Virus record (IMG/VR): IMGVR_UViG_3300017708_001314
Span: 1-22,462 of that record
Source: a virus
Reading direction: 5' to 3' (one strand)
Length of the DNA stretch: 22,462 bases
Numbering within the stretch: position 1 is the stretch's first letter; every line of letters starts with the position of its first letter. Below are positions 10,062-21,513 of this stretch, piece by piece. The notes under the pieces are model-generated. The model was not told the origin of the DNA, did not search any database, and was given only the letters and a program-made list of their open reading frames with translations. The position numbers and the translations under genes were made by a program.

Positions 10062-11669
10062 TTATTTAGTGTTTTTACTTTCTACTGGTGTTTTAGTAGG
10101 ATTTTTCATATTATTTATAGAAACTTTTTTAGTTTCTAAATCAAGATCCGCACTTTGCTTTTCTTGATCCACAACATCAAGAGGATCAATGACTTGACCC
10201 GTCTTGATTTCATCATTTATTTGAATCTTCATTTCTTCAATTTCTTTTTCAGTAAATTGAAGAAGTTGTCTCATCACATAATCTTGAGAGAAGTACTTGC
10301 CAACATAAAGATCTACTTTATCAAGAACTTCCATTTTTTTCTCAAGCATTTCAAGGTCTGCCATTTCAGCAAACTGATTATCATATAGAAAATCATATTG
10401 AATATGCTCTTTGAATTCTTCCCAATCTGCAGAAGTAATTACTCCTTTTAATATTAATTGAGTTCTCAATAAATCATGAAATAGATCAGAAAATTTCTTA
10501 CGAAGACGACCTACAAATTTAGTAAATTTAATTTCGTCTCTGTTAATTTCTTCAGACTTTCCAAGATCAAATGACTTATCACTCTCCAGTCTAGATGCAG
10601 GTACATTAAGTGCTTTATAAACCTGAGTTTGAAAATACTTAATGTCCGTTAATTCTCCAAGATTTTGACCACCAGGAAGTGTAGTGATCTCAGTACCACG
10701 TCCACCTTCACGACGAGGCAACCAATAATCTTCCATGATTGACATATGTTTCTTGTCATCACGCATCTCCCCAGTCGATGAATCATATACAAGTTTATTT
10801 CTATATCGTGACATCACATCACGAAGATATTGCTCTGCTTTTACTTTGGGTAGATTACCTACGTCAATATAAAAGATACGACGTTCTGGTGCTCTCGACA
10901 GACGATATATCACAATGCTATCTTCTAGCATTTTAAGTTGATTTAAAGATTTGATTGCTTTGTGAAGATGACTTAATGTAATATTTCTTGTTGCATCAGT
11001 AATACCAGAAGTTACAGATGCAATTGAATCAGCAGCTATTTTAATACCTTGATTTGTGCTATTTATTCCTTTGTTATTGTAGACATAAAATTCTGTAATT
11101 TTTCCATAATCATATTGATTAAACTCCTGTTCATTTTGAGGAGACTTGTCTACGTACTTATATTTTTTAATTTTTAACGGATCAATATATCTAAGTTCTA
11201 AAATTCCTTTAGAAGAATCATTTAAATCTATAACTTTATGATAATAAATTCTTCCATCAACATACCAACGCCTAAAAATTTGATGTGCTGCTTTATCAAA
11301 ATCTAAAATGCGTTTAATATGTTCAAATTCATTTCTCATACTAGTTTTAATAGAATCAGAAACTTCTAAATTTGATAGTTCTAACTCTACTGGACTATCA
11401 TCTTTATCTGAAACAACTGCTTCATTTGTTACATCTTCAATGGCACTATCTACTTCAGGAGATAGTGCCATTTCCCTATATTTTCTGATGAGATTTACCT
11501 CATCTCTGTGTTTTATACCATCAAGATCTACATAGTGACCAAACCATCCCCCATATGTTGTTATGGAGGAGGTTGCATCTTTATCCGTAGGTGGCACAGG
11601 AGACGAAGCATTTTTCGCCCCCCGCTTGAGATCTTCTTTATCTATAGAAAATCCAAATAACTTTGCCAT
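10062..11669 (-). CDS. 20: gp20, portal vertex protein
   Basis: Dodecameric portal at the unique head vertex, through which gp17 pumps DNA and onto which the neck attaches. The 535 residues match T4 gp20 (524). Conserved portal segments are easy to see: LRYIDPLKIKKYKYV, SRAPERRIFYIDVGNLPK, EQYLRDVMSRYRNKLVYD, MEDYWLPRREGGRGTEI and TLPGGQNLGELTDIKYFQ, then KALNVPASRL. This central block is the region used as a marker for cyanophage diversity. The C-terminal tail is lysine- and threonine-rich. No strong ribosome site precedes the ATG; only GGA lies directly adjacent. Confidence 0.97.
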   Translation of the reverse strand: MAKLFGFSIDKEDLKRGAKNASSPVPPTDKDATSSITTYGGWFGHYVDLDGIKHRDEVNLIRKYREMALSPEVDSAIEDVTNEAVVSDKDDSPVELELSNLEVSDSIKTSMRNEFEHIKRILDFDKAAHQIFRRWYVDGRIYYHKVIDLNDSSKGILELRYIDPLKIKKYKYVDKSPQNEQEFNQYDYGKITEFYVYNNKGINSTNQGIKIAADSIASVTSGITDATRNITLSHLHKAIKSLNQLKMLEDSIVIYRLSRAPERRIFYIDVGNLPKVKAEQYLRDVMSRYRNKLVYDSSTGEMRDDKKHMSIMEDYWLPRREGGRGTEITTLPGGQNLGELTDIKYFQTQVYKALNVPASRLESDKSFDLGKSEEINRDEIKFTKFVGRLRKKFSDLFHDLLRTQLILKGVITSADWEEFKEHIQYDFLYDNQFAEMADLEMLEKKMEVLDKVDLYVGKYFSQDYVMRQLLQFTEKEIEEMKIQINDEIKTGQVIDPLDVVDQEKQSADLDLETKKVSINNMKNPTKTPVESKNTK

Positions 11670-11722: not shown

Positions 11723-12361
11723 TTACTTTAATTTGGTAAATTCGCCAACGTTATTTGTTTCGCCTGCATCAAGATATTGATATTGGAATTCAACATCAAA
11801 TTCTTCGATTTGATCATTACTATCATATGATAAATTAATAGCACCGATACTAGTTGGCCAAGCACCAATTAGTTTATAAACTCTAAGAACTCTATTTGGA
11901 TCATCTCTTTGACCAGTTCTAACTGCTTCACGACCATCAGAAGCTATATTTTTATCTAACTGTCTGACGGTAATATCTTGGAAGTATCCTCCAAAATCAC
12001 CTCTTGCGCCAAAATCAAATGTTCCAAGATTTTCGTCAGTTTTGTTTCCAGTGTTAATCCACTGTTCAAATGCTGCTCTTAGATCAAAGTCAGAGGTATT
12101 ATAGAATGTTGCAGTCCATGCTTCAAAAGTTCTATCACCTGGAACTTTCAAAAACCTTCCTCTAAATGGAACTTCAATGAGTCCCTGATTTACAGATGGA
12201 ATTTGTGCAGACCTGCATAAAAATTTAGTATTTTTTGCTAGATCATTTTTGTTTGCAATATCTCCAGTAAATGCTATCGATGGAAATGGAATTTCCACCT
12301 GATATAGATTGGGGCGTACCCCGCCCTTTAATCTAGATTTGAAATCGATAATGTTTGCCAT
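11723..12361 (-). CDS. 19: gp19, tail tube protein
   Basis: Major subunit of the inner tail tube, polymerising inside the gp18 sheath. The 212 residues are longer than T4 gp19 (163). The N-terminus (DFKSRLKGGVRPNLYQVEIPFP) with the early arginine-proline element, the RSAQIPS motif, IEVPFRGRFLKVPGDRTFEAW and a C-terminal EFDVEFQYQYLDAG are typical of T4-type tube proteins. A clear ribosome site GGGAGAT (12369-12375) and a late promoter at 12382-12391 show it can be expressed on its own, suiting the high copy number required. Confidence 0.95.
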   Translation of the reverse strand: MANIIDFKSRLKGGVRPNLYQVEIPFPSIAFTGDIANKNDLAKNTKFLCRSAQIPSVNQGLIEVPFRGRFLKVPGDRTFEAWTATFYNTSDFDLRAAFEQWINTGNKTDENLGTFDFGARGDFGGYFQDITVRQLDKNIASDGREAVRTGQRDDPNRVLRVYKLIGAWPTSIGAINLSYDSNDQIEEFDVEFQYQYLDAGETNNVGEFTKLK

Positions 12362-12399: not shown

Positions 12400-15183
12400 T
12401 TATCTACCAGTTATTTCACTGAAAGAAATTCCAGTTCTTGTAGCAGTAAAGGTCAATTTAATGAAGTTAATAGAACGTGCAGGTTGAATAAAGATATCAG
12501 CAACAAATTCATTGTTGTCAATTACTGCTGGACCATTATTGCTTTCGTCGCAAATAACTTCAAAGTTAGTAACGCCTCTCCTTGATTGAACATCACGAAG
12601 GAATGGTTCGACAATAGATCTAAAAATATTTCTTGTCGTTTCATCATTGAGTTCAAACAACTGCGCCTTCGCCGCTTGTTCAATCGCTCTTTCCACTACA
12701 AGGAAAAGTTTACGAACATTAATTCTATCAAACGCAGATGGTGTAGCAAGAGCAGTCTTATCTCCAAAGAGAACTGCACCTTGACCAGGGAATGTTGTGA
12801 TAGGATTGATTCTATTTGAATAGAGTTCATCTCTATCTGCTTTTGTTGGATTCCAAGCAAGTTTTGCAAGGTTCCGAATACCACCTCTAGAGAAACCAGC
12901 AGGAGAGAACCAGGGTTCATTTCTAATTGAAGTATCTGCAATCAATCCAGCAATATCACTATTGCAAGGAATGTAGCGATATAAATCATTCCACCGATCA
13001 TAAACATACTTATAGTTTGAATCAAACACACAATATGAAGTACTTCCTATTTGGTCGTAGAAAGATTTAATATTTTCTACAATGGTAGGGTTATCTTTTG
13101 GTATGCCTGTAGTAGAGAGAATATTTTCTCTATATGGAGAAACAACAGCAATACAATCTTTTCTCAAATTTGCAATTGATGCAATATGACTTGCTTTTTT
13201 TCTTGTATCGTTTTCAGGTTCTTCGGAATATGGAATATCAGGACCCATAATTAAATAATCTATGGTTATTGTTTCTGTATCAGCAAATACATTATAACCA
13301 GATTCTATTTCACTAATAGTAACATTATATAATCCATTACTTGTTTCAGAATAATCAGAACCAGAAGTCAACGAATAATCAATAGAACCTTTGGGTTCAA
13401 ATGCAACAGTTTTTGCTTCATAATTATAAAGTGAGGAACCAACAAATACATATTGACTTGATCCAGAAACTAAATTTTTATAATAGTTTGACCCACCTTG
13501 TGCACCCCTTGCATCTTTTGCTTTTGAAAGATATGTGAATGTTTCTACAACGGTATTTTTACTTCCAGACAATCCTCCATCTTCATCCACAATAGCAACA
13601 TGAACTGCATCTTTTGCATCAGCACCAGAGGTTGAAAATGCTTGGGCATCTGGAGTCACCCTGGGTCTTGCAGCAATAGAATTCCACTTAACACCGGAAC
13701 CTGGGTATACTTCTTTGGAGTTATACCAAGCACTACCATCATCAAATGCAGCATTTCCAGATTTTAAATTATAATTAGACGAATCTATAGTTACTTGAGA
13801 TCCAGATTGAAACTTTTGTAGAATTGTGGGAGATGCTAGATACTCATCTGAAGAATCAAGAGTTACAACATGGAGAATTGTAAAATTATCAGAACCTGTA
13901 GAGGTATCGATAACTTTGCCTTTTACTGATCCTTGAGTAACTATAGTTCCAACATTAACTGTACCTAAATTTTCTGTAAAGTATAAAGATTGATTTGGAC
14001 CATGATCAACAACACAAACTCTTAAATTATTACCCCAAGAACCAGGAGATCTAGAAGCAAAAAAGAAAGGAGCAGTATTGTCTATTGCATATGCAGATTC
14101 ATATGTTTCTTCCGACTTAATTGTAATTGGGTCAGATTGCATTACTGCTGTACCTGTAGCAGTCGTTCCAGGAAGAGGAAGAGTAGCACTAAGAGTGGCA
14201 CCTGTAGCAAAATCTCCAAATTCAGTAACAGTAATTCCACTAACAACACCGCCAACACCAATAGTTGCGGTTCCGGCAAATGGAGTATTGATGGTTCCAT
14301 CTGAAGTTACTGTAACTGCATATGAAGTACCAGAATCATAATTAGTACCTACATTAACCAACGTTACGACAACTCCTTCTGGAGCATCAATGGTTACTGT
14401 ATAATCACTAGTATAACCAGTACCACCACCAGTAATGTCAATTCCAGTTATTTCACCATTGGTTACAACTGCAACTGCTGTAGCATCATCGTTACCGCCA
14501 CCACCACTAATTGTAACTGCTGGAACATTTGCTCCATCTCTATAACCAGAACCTGGAATATCAATATTAGTAATAATACCAGTAGTAATACCGCCAGTAT
14601 CAACTGATCCAGGACCAGAACTTGGAATTGTAGTTAATTCTGCTTGAGTTCCATATGCAACGCTAAGAGTTGCCGCAGTACCTACCGGGGTTACCGTAAT
14701 TGTTGGTGGAGATGAATATCCAGAACCAGGTTCTCCTACAACAAATTCTTTTACTGTAAGGTCAGGATTAAGTTGTGCAGATACTATTGCCGTAATACCA
14801 CCAGCAAGATCAGGTGCAGAAACTTCAACTGATGGAGAAGAAGTATACTTTCCTCCAGGATTTACTAAAGTTACTGAACTGACAGACTGTCCAAGTCTTG
14901 CTACTGAATTATTGAGTGCATCAGAATCAATTCTTGATGCAGAAATAAGTCCGCCATATGAAAGGTAATTAGATGCTGATAAGAAATATTCTGCATTTGC
15001 AGAGTTAGGTTCACCAAATGTACTAATTAACTCTGCTTCGTTTGAAACTGTAACAGCGACCCCTACAGGTCCTTCTGAAAAGGGAGCAGCAAAACCGGCA
15101 ATATTACCACTAGTAATATCTGCTCTTCCGGTTGTTAAATCTTGTTCTTTAACAACCACTCCCGGTGAGCGTAATGCAACCAT
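12400..15183 (-). CDS. 18: gp18, contractile tail sheath protein with a large insertion
   Basis: Sheath subunit that contracts to drive the tube through the host envelope. At 927 residues it is far longer than T4 gp18 (659). The N-terminus (MVALRSPGVVVKEQDLT, then NIAGFAAPFSEGPVGVAVTV) and the C-terminal core (NVRKLFLVVERAIEQAAK, FEVICDESNN, ADIFIQPARSINFIKLTFTA) are typical of sheath proteins and conserved. Residues about 103-350 are an inserted glycine- and threonine-rich beta section with repeated G-x-G-Y turns (152-156, 210-214, 253-257, weaker at 109-113 and 278-282). Sheath proteins carry variable outward-facing domains, so this part is probably on the tail surface. It has a strong ribosome site AGGAGAT (15188-15194) and its own late promoter. 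Confidence 0.96.
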   Translation of the reverse strand: MVALRSPGVVVKEQDLTTGRADITSGNIAGFAAPFSEGPVGVAVTVSNEAELISTFGEPNSANAEYFLSASNYLSYGGLISASRIDSDALNNSVARLGQSVSSVTLVNPGGKYTSSPSVEVSAPDLAGGITAIVSAQLNPDLTVKEFVVGEPGSGYSSPPTITVTPVGTAATLSVAYGTQAELTTIPSSGPGSVDTGGITTGIITNIDIPGSGYRDGANVPAVTISGGGGNDDATAVAVVTNGEITGIDITGGGTGYTSDYTVTIDAPEGVVVTLVNVGTNYDSGTSYAVTVTSDGTINTPFAGTATIGVGGVVSGITVTEFGDFATGATLSATLPLPGTTATGTAVMQSDPITIKSEETYESAYAIDNTAPFFFASRSPGSWGNNLRVCVVDHGPNQSLYFTENLGTVNVGTIVTQGSVKGKVIDTSTGSDNFTILHVVTLDSSDEYLASPTILQKFQSGSQVTIDSSNYNLKSGNAAFDDGSAWYNSKEVYPGSGVKWNSIAARPRVTPDAQAFSTSGADAKDAVHVAIVDEDGGLSGSKNTVVETFTYLSKAKDARGAQGGSNYYKNLVSGSSQYVFVGSSLYNYEAKTVAFEPKGSIDYSLTSGSDYSETSNGLYNVTISEIESGYNVFADTETITIDYLIMGPDIPYSEEPENDTRKKASHIASIANLRKDCIAVVSPYRENILSTTGIPKDNPTIVENIKSFYDQIGSTSYCVFDSNYKYVYDRWNDLYRYIPCNSDIAGLIADTSIRNEPWFSPAGFSRGGIRNLAKLAWNPTKADRDELYSNRINPITTFPGQGAVLFGDKTALATPSAFDRINVRKLFLVVERAIEQAAKAQLFELNDETTRNIFRSIVEPFLRDVQSRRGVTNFEVICDESNNGPAVIDNNEFVADIFIQPARSINFIKLTFTATRTGISFSEITGR
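14134..14877 (-). repeat. G-x-G-Y repeat-coding insertion in gp18
   Basis: Codes for about 248 residues built of degenerate units in which a strand is followed by a (P/G)G(S/T)GY turn and a T-V-T-I-like strand. The clearest turns are at residues 152-156, 210-214 and 253-257. The units are diverged at DNA level, so this is a protein repeat, not a recent DNA duplication. Confidence 0.7.
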
Positions 15184-15267: not shown

Positions 15268-15540
15268 TTACCAGTCAGGGTAAATGTCTAATCCGAATCT
15301 AGGGACAGGATCATATGGTATGTCTGGTTTGTTTTTCTTTTTTTTCTTCTTTGATTCACTCACTCTTTTTATTGTACAATCTTTGCATTCGTATGAATAT
15401 GATGAAGGAAATCCTTTTTTATTTTTTCTGATTAAATAAAAATCTAGTAGAAGATCTTTTGTAATATTACAAGTTCTACATTGTCTTTCATTAAATAATA
15501 AATGTTCTAATTCATATTGATCTTCCTCAAAATTGCTCAT
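15268..15540 (-). CDS. small zinc-finger-like protein between gp17 and gp18
   Basis: A 90-residue protein with two cysteine pairs, C21-x2-C24 and C52-x2-C55, arranged like the zinc-binding preamble found in many HNH endonucleases (C-x2-C, then an F-Y-containing strand and a lysine-rich segment, then Y-x-C-x2-C). A lysine run (about 64-70) and the ending GLDIYPDW follow; no HNH catalytic motif is present. Its ATG overlaps the gp17 stop (ATGA). A nucleic-acid-binding role, possibly linked to packaging, is inferred. A degraded homing endonuclease is an alternative, but the intact frame and coupling argue against decay. Confidence 0.75.
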   Translation of the reverse strand: MSNFEEDQYELEHLLFNERQCRTCNITKDLLLDFYLIRKNKKGFPSSYSYECKDCTIKRVSESKKKKKKNKPDIPYDPVPRFGLDIYPDW

Positions 15541-17291
15541 CTATACTCCCACATATAATTCATTTCTCCATATTCACTAGTATTTGATCCTGAATATGAT
15601 CCTGAACCATCTTGTGCAATATACCAAACATCACCATTATTATCAACTTCTACATTATCATCTAATCCAGTATCAATAAATCCAAAAGGTGACATATCTT
15701 GATCAATTTGATTTTTTTGATCTTCGTACAATCTTTTACGAACATCATTATCTGTCATTTCTTTGAAATAATCTTGAGCAACTAACCATGCAAAGATAAC
15801 CAAACACATGGCAAGATCATCATTACAACCTTCTTCTGCCTCGAAAGATTGTTTCTTTTGAATAAATGTAGTTAGTTCAGATATAATATCATAATCATTT
15901 ATTAAAAGTTTATCACCTTCAATTAGTTGTTTTAAATTAGAACAACCAATTTTTTTCACGGTGGTACTTGTTTTTACTCCTAGTTGAGTTTTAGAACCAG
16001 AAAATCCTTGACCTACAATTTGACCTGCTCTACCTCTCATAGAACACATTAATAAATTTTCATTTTCTAAATCATACTGTAGGATTGATGCTACTTGATC
16101 TCCGATATCATTAACCTCAACTAAAATAAATGCTTTATTATAATTTAATGATACTTGATTAATAATATTTGGAAACAACATAGGTTTAATCTCGTTGTTC
16201 TTATATGTACCTACAACTTTATATGGAACTGTTGTGATATCATATAATATAAATGCTGAATAATCATTACTAGTACCTCTGGCAACATCAACGGTCATCA
16301 GATATTCATGATCTTTTATTGGATTTTCATAAGTTTTTAATCCAGAACCTTCTTTAATTGGTTCTTCATATGCCATAGATCTTAATTTATTTGCTGAAAT
16401 TAAAGTATCAACAGATCCTAAAAATTCACATTCAAATTCTTGAGTGAACTGTCGGGCAGATGTATTTGCAATAGTTTGTTGTTTCCAGGCATCATCTCTT
16501 CCTGGGACTTGTGACCAGTGAACTTCTGTGGTGACATATTCATTTCTACCAAGTTCGGCATCATGCCATAACTTGTAGAACATGTTCATTCCGTTTGGCG
16601 TTGAGATGATGATGACTTTTGTGCTTTTACCAGAAGAAATAGTAGGATACACAGAGGCAAAAAATTGCTCTGCAACATGAGTTGGAATGAACGCAAATTC
16701 ATCGAGGAAGATGATGTTAAACGACATACCTCGGACAGCAGACGCAGATGTAGAAGATGCCAAAATTTTACTGCCATTTTCAAGCTCCATAGATCCTTTG
16801 TTCCATGCAATGATACCTTGCTGCAACCACGTCGGCAAGTTTTCATATGCAAGTTGTAACCTTCCTAAAAGTTCTCTTGCAGTCGGTGCTTTGTTTGCTA
16901 GGATACCAATATTTACATTATCATTAAATAATGCATAGTGCATAAGATATGCCACAACAGTGGTTGACTTACCTGTCTGTCGTGGCAACTTTGCAATATT
17001 AAATCTGTTTGCATGGAATCTACGTACCATGTCTTCCTGAAAATCATATAACTTAAAAGGAACTAAACCTTCATCAAGAGATACGATTTTACAGTATGTT
17101 ATAGCAAAGTATACTGGATCTGCTTTACACTTTAGATACTCTTCAATCTGTTTAGGTGTAAAGTTGATTGGTACACCAACTTTTTTTAAATTGGGATTTC
17201 CTAAGTAAATCTGATGTTGATTCAGTTTAGGGTCAACAATATCATCATTATCATCAGGTTCAGGTGATGCTATTTTTGTTTTCTTTGCCAT
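15537..17291 (-). CDS. 17: gp17, large terminase subunit (packaging ATPase and nuclease)
   Basis: Motor that docks on the gp20 portal, translocates DNA into the head and cuts concatemers. The 584 residues are close to T4 gp17 (610). The N-terminal ATPase shows Walker A RQTGKST (104-110), Walker B IIFLDE (193-198) and the coupling motif STPNG (230-234). The C-terminal RNase H-like nuclease shows acidic residues D335 in MTVDVARG, E392 in LVEVND and D491/D492 in CNDDLAM, corresponding to the T4 D401-E458-D542 site. The acidic C-terminal tail is rich in G, S and N. Upstream is the 49-residue cysteine-rich gene, three bases away, rather than gp16 as in T4. Confidence 0.98.
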   Translation of the reverse strand: MAKKTKIASPEPDDNDDIVDPKLNQHQIYLGNPNLKKVGVPINFTPKQIEEYLKCKADPVYFAITYCKIVSLDEGLVPFKLYDFQEDMVRRFHANRFNIAKLPRQTGKSTTVVAYLMHYALFNDNVNIGILANKAPTARELLGRLQLAYENLPTWLQQGIIAWNKGSMELENGSKILASSTSASAVRGMSFNIIFLDEFAFIPTHVAEQFFASVYPTISSGKSTKVIIISTPNGMNMFYKLWHDAELGRNEYVTTEVHWSQVPGRDDAWKQQTIANTSARQFTQEFECEFLGSVDTLISANKLRSMAYEEPIKEGSGLKTYENPIKDHEYLMTVDVARGTSNDYSAFILYDITTVPYKVVGTYKNNEIKPMLFPNIINQVSLNYNKAFILVEVNDIGDQVASILQYDLENENLLMCSMRGRAGQIVGQGFSGSKTQLGVKTSTTVKKIGCSNLKQLIEGDKLLINDYDIISELTTFIQKKQSFEAEEGCNDDLAMCLVIFAWLVAQDYFKEMTDNDVRKRLYEDQKNQIDQDMSPFGFIDTGLDDNVEVDNNGDVWYIAQDGSGSYSGSNTSEYGEMNYMWEYR

Positions 17292-17447: not shown

Positions 17448-17729
17448 TTAGCAATCCCATTTACGTAATGATTTATTGATCCTGCTATCTGGATCGTTTG
17501 CAGTTTTCTTACTTGTAAGTTTTTTCTTCATTCCACTCATCCGAGCACAGAAGGATTTTCTTCTCTTGTTTCCCTTCTTCTTGGTTGGTGCTTTCAAATC
17601 GCTGCCAGGGTTCTCCTTCTCGTAGGATTTCCTGCCCTTCTCGTTGAGTCCACCTTCTTTGTTCTGACCAGATTTCTTTGTCCATGCTGCCTCATCTAAT
17701 TGTGTACAAAATTCGTTAAATGTTAACAT
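17448..17729 (-). CDS. small basic protein, DUF6321-like
   Basis: A 93-residue, strongly basic protein. The N-terminus (MLTFNEFCTQLDEAAWTKKSGQ) resembles the start of many short cyanophage proteins. The body GGLNEKGRKSYEKENPGSDLKAP, then KRRKSFCARMSGMKKKL, and the ending INKSLRKWDC recall a small conserved family (DUF6321 as I remember it) of unknown function, also found outside phages. Lysine/arginine richness suggests nucleic-acid contact. It has a late promoter 35 nt upstream and heads the group leading to the microprotein and gp17, so it is a late protein that may act in packaging or in the head. Confidence 0.75.
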   Translation of the reverse strand: MLTFNEFCTQLDEAAWTKKSGQNKEGGLNEKGRKSYEKENPGSDLKAPTKKKGNKRRKSFCARMSGMKKKLTSKKTANDPDSRINKSLRKWDC

Positions 17730-17764: not shown

Positions 17765-17776
17765 TATTTATTTATG
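17765..17776 (-). promoter_or_regulatory. late promoter for the 93-residue gene and gp17
   Basis: The minus strand reads CATAAATAAATA, containing two overlapping ATAAATA cores. It overlaps the stop of the BspA-like gene and lies 35 nt before the next ATG. Confidence 0.6.
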
Positions 17777-18839
17777 GATTGTGAGCAACAGTCCAACCCT
17801 TGTTAATTAGGTTAGTATAAGCAGTGTTGGCAGCAGCAGACCAAGTGGTCTTGGCAGCACTTGTTCCACCAGACACAGAAGTGCTGACATTTGACTTTCC
17901 AGAAGTATCTAAAGCAACCAAAATATTTTCAATAGATTGTACTGATAGGGCACAATTAAGCCAAGTGTTAAACATATAAAGAACATTAGAATAATCAAGC
18001 ACTGGGAATGTAGTGAGTGAAGTACAACCACTCCAAGCATTAGATATGTTTATGCTTGATCCCCCAGACAAGTCAATCACTGGGAATGAAGTAAGTGAAG
18101 TACAACCACTCCAAGTGTGGGTTAGTAATGTTGCTGAAGAAGTGTCAATCGATGGGAAACTTGTAAGATCGCTACATCCCTTCCAAGTGTATTGGAAATT
18201 TGTTCCCGAAGAAGTATCAATTTCGGGGAAGCTTGTAAGGTTGATACAGTTCCACCAAGTACCTTGGAAACTTAGTACTGAAGAAGTATCAAGCAATGGG
18301 AATGAAGTAAGTGAAGAACAACCAAACCAAGCAAAGCTAGCGTTTAATACCGAAGAAGTGTCAATCGATGGGAAACTTGTAAGGTTACTACAATTTTGCC
18401 AGGTGCGTTGTATATCTGTAATATTACTTGTCACATCAAACGGACATACAAGTGAAGTCATGTTATTTGCACCCCGCCAAGCAGACGGGATGCTAGTCCC
18501 CAAATTAGCATCAGCACCAATAGTAACAGAAGTAATCTGTTCTGAGTCACTGGAAATATTTGCAAAAAATGGGTTATAAGCATCATCACTATCAATAGTA
18601 ATAGTGTAATCACCAGCAGTATAAGTATGAGTTAATGCGTTGGATGTGCTGCTTTCAGAGTTACCATCACCCCAATTAACAGTATAATTGACAGTACCAT
18701 TAGACCTAAGAACAAAATCACCACCAGTATTTGTGATGGTATAGTTAATATCTTGTAGTTCGGACTCAGTATTGGTGATGTTTCTACTAAACTTTTCTGA
18801 CCAAGTATAAAATCCTAATCCTAAAAATGGATAAGTCAT
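17772..18839 (-). CDS. BspA-like leucine-rich-repeat protein with PKD-like domain
   Basis: A 355-residue protein with no signal peptide or membrane segment. Residues about 35-85 look like a PKD-type beta domain (NYTVNWGDGNSES, then LTHTYTAGDYTITI). Residues 126-297 are seven repeats of 24-26 residues of the BspA/DUF285 kind, with the pattern LTSFPxIDTSS-x6-TWxxCxx. The C-terminus (SIENILVALDTSGK, then TTWSAAANTAYTNLINKGW) is the usual end of phage-borne BspA proteins. BspA-type repeats are known from bacterial surface adhesins and occur in some phage virions. The gene sits between the two terminase genes, which are adjacent in T4. It has a good ribosome site GAGGA and starts two bases after the preceding stop. 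A role in binding cell surfaces is inferred. Confidence 0.85.
   Translation of the reverse strand: MTYPFLGLGFYTWSEKFSRNITNTESELQDINYTITNTGGDFVLRSNGTVNYTVNWGDGNSESSTSNALTHTYTAGDYTITIDSDDAYNPFFANISSDSEQITSVTIGADANLGTSIPSAWRGANNMTSLVCPFDVTSNITDIQRTWQNCSNLTSFPSIDTSSVLNASFAWFGCSSLTSFPLLDTSSVLSFQGTWWNCINLTSFPEIDTSSGTNFQYTWKGCSDLTSFPSIDTSSATLLTHTWSGCTSLTSFPVIDLSGGSSINISNAWSGCTSLTTFPVLDYSNVLYMFNTWLNCALSVQSIENILVALDTSGKSNVSTSVSGGTSAAKTTWSAAANTAYTNLINKGWTVAHNP
17949..18464 (-). repeat. seven tandem 24-26-residue LRR units
   Basis: Units begin at residues 126, 152, 176, 200, 224, 248 and 274, each ending in a W-x2-C element; units 2-5 and 7 are exactly 24 residues (72 nt). At DNA level blocks such as the sequence coding for DTSS and TSFP recur closely, suggesting relatively recent expansion or gene conversion. 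Confidence 0.85.
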
Positions 18840-19784: not shown

Positions 19785-20623
19785 ACATCCTCAGCAAAAG
19801 TTACAATTTCATTAAATCCAAAATCATCATTACTAGTTAATGCATCATCATCAAAACTATCAATAACGCCATCTGGTGCTCCTGCATCTGGACCATTTGG
19901 ATCACTTGTAGTATCGGTAAGTGCTTTTGGTGTCACACTATATTGACGATACCTGCCTGGAGATTCTATATTTGTATTTGTATACTCATTGATGATTGCC
20001 TTTCTAATAATTGCACTATCAAACTTAGGACCATAATAATAAGATTTGGCAGTAAAAAATAATGTATAAGTTATATATCTACGTTCTTTAAAATCTCCAT
20101 CCCAAGTATCATCATATGAAATACTATCTAAATTTATTGGCACATCTCTTTTTGCTTCCTGCATATCAGGAACAAACTTAACTGTTACATTTAAAGATGG
20201 TTGAAAAAATGGTAAAATCTGTTCTAAAATCTGTAATGCATCTGCTTGAGATTTTGCAATAATACCTGCTTCAAAACTTAAATTATAAGGAACTGGTACA
20301 TATTGTACTTTAATTGATTTACCATCATCTTGTTTAACTTCAGTTAATTGTTTGCATGGTGTAAGATGTCTTTCTTCATCATAAGAAATACCTGTCATTT
20401 CAAAATACAACCTAGGAAGAGTAATTGATGTCTTTTTAGTTTTAGTATTTTGCTCAAGACGTGATAAAAATTTCTGTTTAGGTCCATATGCCAAAGGAAC
20501 TTTCTGGACAGTAACAACTGTTCCGTCTGGATCTTCTGTCTTTAACTGTATATTATTAAAGATTGTTCCAAAAGCAACAATTACTTTATTGGTTGATTTG
20601 TTGTAAAAATGTGTTCCTAACAT
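19781..20623 (-). CDS. 15: gp15, tail sheath stabiliser and terminator
   Basis: Forms the ring that closes the top of the tail and joins it to the neck. The 280 residues match T4 gp15 (272). The N-terminus MLGTHFYNKSTNKVIVAFGTIFNNI, the block TSITLPRLYFEMTGISYDEERH and the segment YVPVPYNLSFEAGI are characteristic of the family and well preserved; the C-terminus is acidic and probably flexible. The start ATG shares a base with the gp14 stop (TAATG), indicating coupled translation in the gp13-gp14-gp15-gp16 series. Confidence 0.95.
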   Translation of the reverse strand: MLGTHFYNKSTNKVIVAFGTIFNNIQLKTEDPDGTVVTVQKVPLAYGPKQKFLSRLEQNTKTKKTSITLPRLYFEMTGISYDEERHLTPCKQLTEVKQDDGKSIKVQYVPVPYNLSFEAGIIAKSQADALQILEQILPFFQPSLNVTVKFVPDMQEAKRDVPINLDSISYDDTWDGDFKERRYITYTLFFTAKSYYYGPKFDSAIIRKAIINEYTNTNIESPGRYRQYSVTPKALTDTTSDPNGPDAGAPDGVIDSFDDDALTSNDDFGFNEIVTFAEDV

Positions 20624-21513
20624 TAGATGCTACCTGTAAAATTGCCATATTCTCCAAATGGATTTCCTTCTGTCCAATCGATGATATCATCACCACTGTT
20701 CTCAAGTTCTCTATTTTGGTCGTAATTTGTATTATCTATACTCAAAGTATCAAATGAAGTTAAAGTATATGCAGCACTACTACTAGATCCGGTAATAGAT
20801 TCTCCAACAGTAAAATCTCCATTATTATTTATAGTTTCAAGTTTAAATATTGTACCGTTCCAACTTGCAACCCTTCCTGTAGTTCCAGATGTAGATCCTG
20901 TTACAAGTTCTCCAATCTCATATGTTCCAGTTCCATTCAATTCTTGAAGAACTAATGTAAGTGATGGATCAAGTTCAAGTTCAGTTTCTACAATTTCAGC
21001 AATTGGAACATTAAACTCATCACTGCCCATCTCATATAATTCAGCAGTTAGTTTAAAGAATTGAATTTCTCCAAATTGATAGAAAGGATTTTCTTTATTT
21101 ACAAATTTAATTTCATATAAATCTTGTGTTAATGGATAATATAATAGGTCTCCCTCATTAGGTCTTGTTAATACATCAATATCAATTGAATTATATTCTT
21201 GTACAGAACTTTCCCATCTTCTACGCGAAACCCTGAAAATAATTTCATCCGTAATTCTTAAACCAAATTTACTTATAAACTCACTATTTTCGTTAAATCC
21301 CTCTACATTTTGTAATAACATTTCAATCTGAAATTGATTGTTAAATTCAGATCGAATTATATCATCTAAAACTCCATCAGTTATTACTTTACGTGGAAGA
21401 TAATAAATATCTGATCCATATAATTTTATTTGCTCATCTACTAAATCTTGATAAAGACCTTGCTCGCCAGAAAATCCTTTATGATACTGGGGAAAATAGT
21501 GACTTGTTGGCAT
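20623..21513 (-). CDS. 14: gp14, neck protein with repeat insertion
   Basis: Neck protein joining the head portal to the tail with gp13. The 296 residues exceed T4 gp14 (256). Conserved parts are the start MPTSHYFPQYHKGFSGEQGL, then YYLPRKVITDGVLDDIIRS, ISKFGLRITDEIIFRVSRRRW and the proximal tail segment YQFGEIQFFKLTAELYEMG. Residues about 185-265 are an extra section with two copies of an (F/Y)-x-(I/V)-G-E-x-x-T-G-S pattern (198-206 and 234-242). The conserved end DWTEGNPFGEYGNF returns afterwards, so the extra part is an internal insertion. The gene begins one base after the gp13 stop. Confidence 0.95.
   Translation of the reverse strand: MPTSHYFPQYHKGFSGEQGLYQDLVDEQIKLYGSDIYYLPRKVITDGVLDDIIRSEFNNQFQIEMLLQNVEGFNENSEFISKFGLRITDEIIFRVSRRRWESSVQEYNSIDIDVLTRPNEGDLLYYPLTQDLYEIKFVNKENPFYQFGEIQFFKLTAELYEMGSDEFNVPIAEIVETELELDPSLTLVLQELNGTGTYEIGELVTGSTSGTTGRVASWNGTIFKLETINNNGDFTVGESITGSSSSAAYTLTSFDTLSIDNTNYDQNRELENSGDDIIDWTEGNPFGEYGNFTGSI

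Follow-up and report, generated by a model that had tools for sequence, protein, structure and literature searches.

A tail sheath protein of uncultured T4-like phages with three tandem G-x-(G/N)-Y modules at the position of T4 gp18 domain I

In the tail sheath protein gp18 of phage T4, present in 138 copies, domain I (residues 98-188) is inserted in domain II (residues 88-97 and 189-345) (PMC3004832). It protrudes outwards, makes no subunit-subunit contacts, and binds the baseplate and the retracted long tail fibres, retraction being blocked by the substitutions G106S, S175F and A178V (PMC3004832). In cyanophage A-1(L), the fibres are folded back towards the sheath, and a long fibre touches it (PMC10966104). 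That sheaths can bear extra domains, for which adhesive or stabilising roles have been proposed, is already known (PMC9230969). In the open-access literature we have found no description of the module array reported here, of its link to T4 domain I, or of its repeated appearance in several loops of sheaths.

The window, that is, the whole 22.5-kb stretch of DNA analysed, is a fragment of a T4-like virus. Its ORFs follow the order terminase-like (15537-17291), sheath, tube-sized (11723-12361) and portal-sized (10062-11669), which is the gp17-gp18-gp19-gp20 order of the S-SKS1, B23, S-RSM4 and T4 records, the labels gp17, gp19 and gp20 in the window being putative. Genes near the sheath match the gp14, gp15, small terminase and UvsY families. 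The 927-aa sheath itself matches Pfam families Phage_sheath_1 (47.6 bits, cut-off 31.4) and Phage_sheath_1C (61.9 bits, cut-off 26.9), its best sequence relative in PDB is T4 gp18 (phmmer, E 2.7e-87), and the top folds for the full-length model are the sheaths of phage KP1 variant Lilla1 and of T4 (E 4e-23). As the core of this full-length model is poor (mean pLDDT 63), we infer the orientation of residues 100-350. The features of the gene are as follows.

12400-15183, minus strand: tail sheath protein gene, gp18 type, 927 aa (intact ORF; Pfam, PDB and fold matches)
14887-15183, minus strand: N-terminal core, residues 1-99, T4 domains IV/III and the start of II (phmmer to T4 residues 2-118)
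14134-14886, minus strand: expanded domain I, probably homologous to that of T4, residues 100-350, three tandem G-x-(G/N)-Y modules (alignments and isolated model)
14623-14886, minus strand: module A, residues 100-187, motif Y113 and Y156 (hhalign A-B and A-C)
14359-14589, minus strand: module B, residues 199-275, motif Y214 and Y257 (hhalign B-C and B-T4 domain I)
14134-14373, minus strand: module C, residues 271-350, motif Y282 and F325 (hhalign C-T4 domain I; collinear alignment)
13336-14133, minus strand: rest of domain II, residues 351-616 (collinear with T4 189-345)
13654-14001, minus strand: approximate second insertion in domain II, residues ~395-510, of a different sequence type (alignments)
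12403-13335, minus strand: C-terminal part of domain III and domain IV, conserved core, residues 617-927 (phmmer to T4 348-656)

Some other ORFs of the window, all on the minus strand, may be mentioned here. A 90-aa endonuclease VII-like ORF (15268-15540, PHROG 4723) lies between gp17 and gp18. Pfam assigns DUF6321 (E 2e-23) to the product of 17448-17729, which eight PHROGs of widely differing lengths match, mostly via their C-terminal ends. Beside gp17, a 355-aa ORF (17772-18839) contains a run of ~23-residue units (C.SLTSFP.IDTSS...W..C) resembling BspA-type leucine-rich repeats; it has no Pfam match and belongs with PHROG 34853, whose function is not assigned.

The initial annotation put the sheath at about 270 residues longer than T4 gp18, and the excess is indeed 268 residues (927 vs 659) within one intact ORF. 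It also ascribed all of this excess to a glycine/threonine-rich run at 14134-14877. The run is there, but its better start is at residue ~100 (window 14886) rather than 103. Its ~251 residues enlarge domain I by only ~160, and a further ~110 of the 268 fall in the second insertion in domain II. The latter (VGTIVTQGSVKGKVID...) is found in many cyanophages, S-SKS1, B23, Bellamy and S-SM2 among them, being shorter or absent in S-RSM4, ACG-2014e, Mosig and T4. In the rest of domain II (residues 351-616), 'ASRSPGSWGNNLRVCVVD' pairs with 'ALYPGELGDKIEIEIVS' of T4 in the profile alignment.

Residues 100-350 are rich in G, T and V, and contain six matches to G-x(0-1)-(G/N/K)-Y at five sites, one tyrosine being counted twice (GGKY/GKY); composition shuffles yield 0.51 matches on average, and none of 20,000 reaches six. 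The motif turns are paired, two per module and 43 residues apart, and hence the segment divides into three modules, A, B and C, with F325 of module C replaced by tyrosine in most relatives. Modules A and B align by hhalign with E 8e-17 and a score of 85, compared to a shuffle maximum of 18, A and C with E 3e-5, and B and C with E 4e-5, all three pairs exceeding column-shuffled controls. In the alignment with 22 relatives, the glycine and tyrosine of the motif are among the few invariant columns. No DNA-level tandem repeats are seen, so the duplication of modules is old and the protein units have diverged. The degenerate strand-turn repeat noted initially is thus real, but it is not featureless, being built of three tandem modules with paired turns.

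Structure prediction for the subunit and an alignment of gp18 across marine T4-like phages had been suggested as checks in the initial annotation. The isolated three-module segment is predicted by AlphaFold2 to consist essentially of beta strands (mean pLDDT 94.0, pTM 0.78). A Foldseek search of this model against PDB yields nothing significant, T4 gp18 included (best E 0.31), a search of PDB with the segment sequence gives only a chance antibody match (E 0.24), and no Ig-like family occurs among the Pfam matches of the sheath at E up to 1. In the alignment, the corresponding slot is nearly empty in the cultured cyanophages checked; in T4, by contrast, the slot is occupied by domain I, short and probably homologous, so the claim that T4 lacks the insertion holds only in part.

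The link to T4 is supported by position and by profile comparisons. Residues 100-350 occupy exactly the slot of T4 domain I (98-188, 91 residues), and both flanks are collinear with T4. A mixed MAFFT alignment misplaced T4 domain I, and a profile alignment was used for the T4 comparison; in it module C and the start of domain II are collinear with T4 99-240 (local E 0.0013). An HMM built from modules A and B only finds residues 102-158 of T4 gp18 at E 8e-6 in the sheath set. In 949 ORFs the same HMM places T4 gp18 (19.1 bits) directly after plain-module proteins, followed by other Straboviridae sheaths (3-11 bits), roughly the better-scoring half of which exceed the best reversed decoy (6.7 bits). 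By hhalign, T4 domain I matches module B with E 2.5e-4 and module C with E 6e-4, the probabilities for single modules being only 2-43%. Tyrosines Y110 and Y151 of the T4 motifs are 41 residues apart, vs 43 in the window sheath. Among the relatives of T4 itself, the second of its motifs (GKNY) is not conserved. PHROG 26741 matches both T4 domain I (6e-5) and a baseplate-type protein that also has plain modules. Judging from these sequence comparisons, and with the missing fold match of the isolated model speaking against it, T4 domain I is probably one divergent copy of the module, the homology being likely, not proven.

In IMG/VR, the segment occurs in at least 40 full-length relatives, 904-931 aa long. 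In the aligned sheaths of cultured cyanophages and pelagiphages (S-SKS1, B23, S-RSM4, P-HM1, Bellamy, Mosig, S-B43 and S-SM2, with others in a further alignment), the slot, its length being taken from the alignment, comprises ~8 to 19 residues, that is, domain I is absent. In a tree built on the C-terminal core with the segment left out, the long forms constitute one clade (100/99) beside S-RSM4 and ACG-2014e (98/94), both lacking the segment. Genes of the psbA/psbD type are found on three of the eight long-form contigs tested, namely the three largest, and therefore the clade very probably infects cyanobacteria and consists of uncultured cyanophages; the window, for its part, is too short for such evidence. 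The full segment is not found in 50,697 phage records, a set from which records close to the window may be missing. Cultured phages yield no whole-segment match. The best hits span ~60 aa of proteins of fibre-like or structural type; another, in an uncultured phage, takes in half of a hypothetical protein.

The module is observed in other sheaths as well. Two sheaths (L220 and L237) of an unrelated lineage near pelagiphage Mosig have a shorter run of modules at the domain I slot, while the S-CAM1 sheath (L275:601-3021) carries the module at residues 207-359 and that of Xanthomonas phage X1 (L277:586-2562) at residues 242-321, both in other loops of domain II. On a tree rooted on Straboviridae, and depending on that root, the shortest reading would be that domain I was lost after the split of L220/L237 and regained in the long-form clade. 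Beyond sheaths, proteins with the module include those of the baseplate, the fibres and the neck as well as P22 gp10-like hubs, where neck and hub are names taken from PHROG and BFVD. It is also present in very large open frames (2,500-3,500 aa) of long-form cyanophage contigs, presumably also of virion type. Predicted viral structures sharing the module fold are mostly virion proteins of cyanophages and uncultured phages.

Two further proteins belong to this subject. A P22 gp10-like hub-type protein (L188:2179-4482) has six G-x-G-Y motifs, and many contigs are similar. The gp14/Hc2 neck protein of the window (20623-21513, minus strand) has a different repeat, F/Y-x-V/I-G-E-x-V/I-T-G, near residues 183-253, approximately where other members of PHROG 460 have G-x-G-Y modules.

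Surface display of the segment is well supported by homology and position: the T4 domain I slot and the T4 copy number agree with the initial suggestion of a surface domain along the whole tail in about a hundred or more copies. The retraction residues of T4 are G107, S176 and A179 if the initial methionine is counted, the published numbers fitting only without it. G107 corresponds to the glycine in the PGSNY motif, S176 and A179 lying in another loop; as the mutations fall on this glycine and loop, the fibre-docking loops of T4 coincide with features of the repeated module. S-RSM4 and ACG-2014e have no slot domain, and hence it is probably dispensable for contraction. By analogy with T4, we are somewhat inclined to regard the segment as an enlarged, three-module domain I, forming an outward-facing surface for docking or adhesion outside the contraction machinery. 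Each sheath subunit would display three modules away from the tail axis, apart from that machinery, and the exposed turn loops would, like T4 domain I, dock tail fibres that lie folded back on the sheath, possibly also contacting the host surface. Fibre docking by the modules is the more conjectural part: the role is carried over from T4, and cultured cyanophages manage without domain I. A bolder version, which we hold to be rather improbable, is that the module is a mobile decoration unit, set again and again into various outward-facing sheath loops and into neck, baseplate, fibre and podovirus hub proteins. In T4, domain I would be its single, domesticated form, and the long-form clade would have regained the lost domain as three modules docking module-to-module onto module-bearing fibres.

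The main rival to fibre docking is adhesion to glycans, with lectin-like or Ig-like patches weakly binding polysaccharide of the host or of particles and thereby increasing the number of encounters without any docking of fibres. Such a role has been proposed for extra Ig-like sheath domains (PMC9230969). The exposed position, as well as the presence of modules in fibre and baseplate proteins, agrees with it. Still, Pfam reveals neither Ig nor carbohydrate-binding families in the sheath, and no solved lectin is significant by fold. Tryptophan is common in sugar-binding sites. The segment contains neither Trp nor His; of its charged residues, 20 are acidic and just 3 basic. We consider adhesion possible, but less likely than an enlarged domain I with an outward-facing surface.

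Stabilisation would require adjacent arrays to touch in the extended or contracted tail, stiffening or cementing the sheath. Three stacked modules could reach neighbouring subunits, and such a role has been proposed for the additional domains in the sheath of phage 812 (cited in PMC9230969). It is disfavoured by the viability of the nearest tree relatives without the segment, S-RSM4 and ACG-2014e, and by the lack of inter-subunit contacts in T4 domain I (PMC3004832). Nor is the segment conserved above the rest of domain II, the mean pairwise identity among long forms being 57% and 56%, respectively (70% for residues 1-99, 84% for residues 778-927). All this makes stabilisation unlikely. The idea of a hypervariable surface is not supported, since the divergence of the segment keeps pace with that of the remaining domain II but does not exceed it.

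Equally doubtful is a neutral spacer, i.e., a mobile beta module that enters tolerant surface loops and stays there without a specific job. The differing insertion points in sheaths and the presence of the module in many unrelated virion proteins are what one would expect of it, but the near-constant length and the invariant Gly and Tyr in the long-form clade are not, and at a copy number of a hundred or more per tail such a module would be costly. Finally, although the window is a metagenomic fragment, an assembly artefact or a frameshifted fusion is refuted by the intact ORF and by recurrence of the full-length form, segment included, on at least 40 separately assembled contigs.

If the preferred reading of an enlarged domain I holds, domain I of the best-studied contractile tail becomes one case of a widely shared virion module, and the exterior of the sheath is marked out as a site of surface-module exchange among marine phages. 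By comparing clades that have zero, one or three modules, the role of domain I, so far little explained, could be put to the test. Moreover, the module has a confidently predicted fold without a significant match in PDB.

Among known systems, the closest is T4 gp18 domain I (crystal structures gp18PR and gp18M/3FOA), which shares with the window segment the slot between conserved flanks, detectable homology and a beta-rich character. It differs in having one divergent module of 91 aa, as opposed to three modules and ~251 aa. T4 domain I is a six-stranded barrel; the model of the segment is all beta and has no significant Foldseek match in PDB. An analogy with the tail whiskers of phage CBB was not used, as no genes are known to be tied to whiskers. 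Type 3 (multi-domain) sheaths likewise have accessory domains, inserted into the core of the sheath at a distance from the tube; these are described as mostly Ig-like (Evseev et al., 2022; PMC9230969), unlike the window segment, which has no Ig match. The sheath of Vibrio phage XM1 (PMC10457771) also has an accessory insertion domain, but one similar to FliD D3 of the flagellar cap and of an unrelated sequence class. The sheaths of Synechococcus phage S-CAM1 and Xanthomonas phage X1 contain the same module as the window, but outside the domain I slot. The sequence module of the window sheath is also found in PHROGs 460 (Hc2/gp14), 708 and 438 (baseplate wedge), 5342 (tail fibre) and 701 (virion structural), which are not sheaths but other virion proteins, and the module fold is predicted in such proteins.
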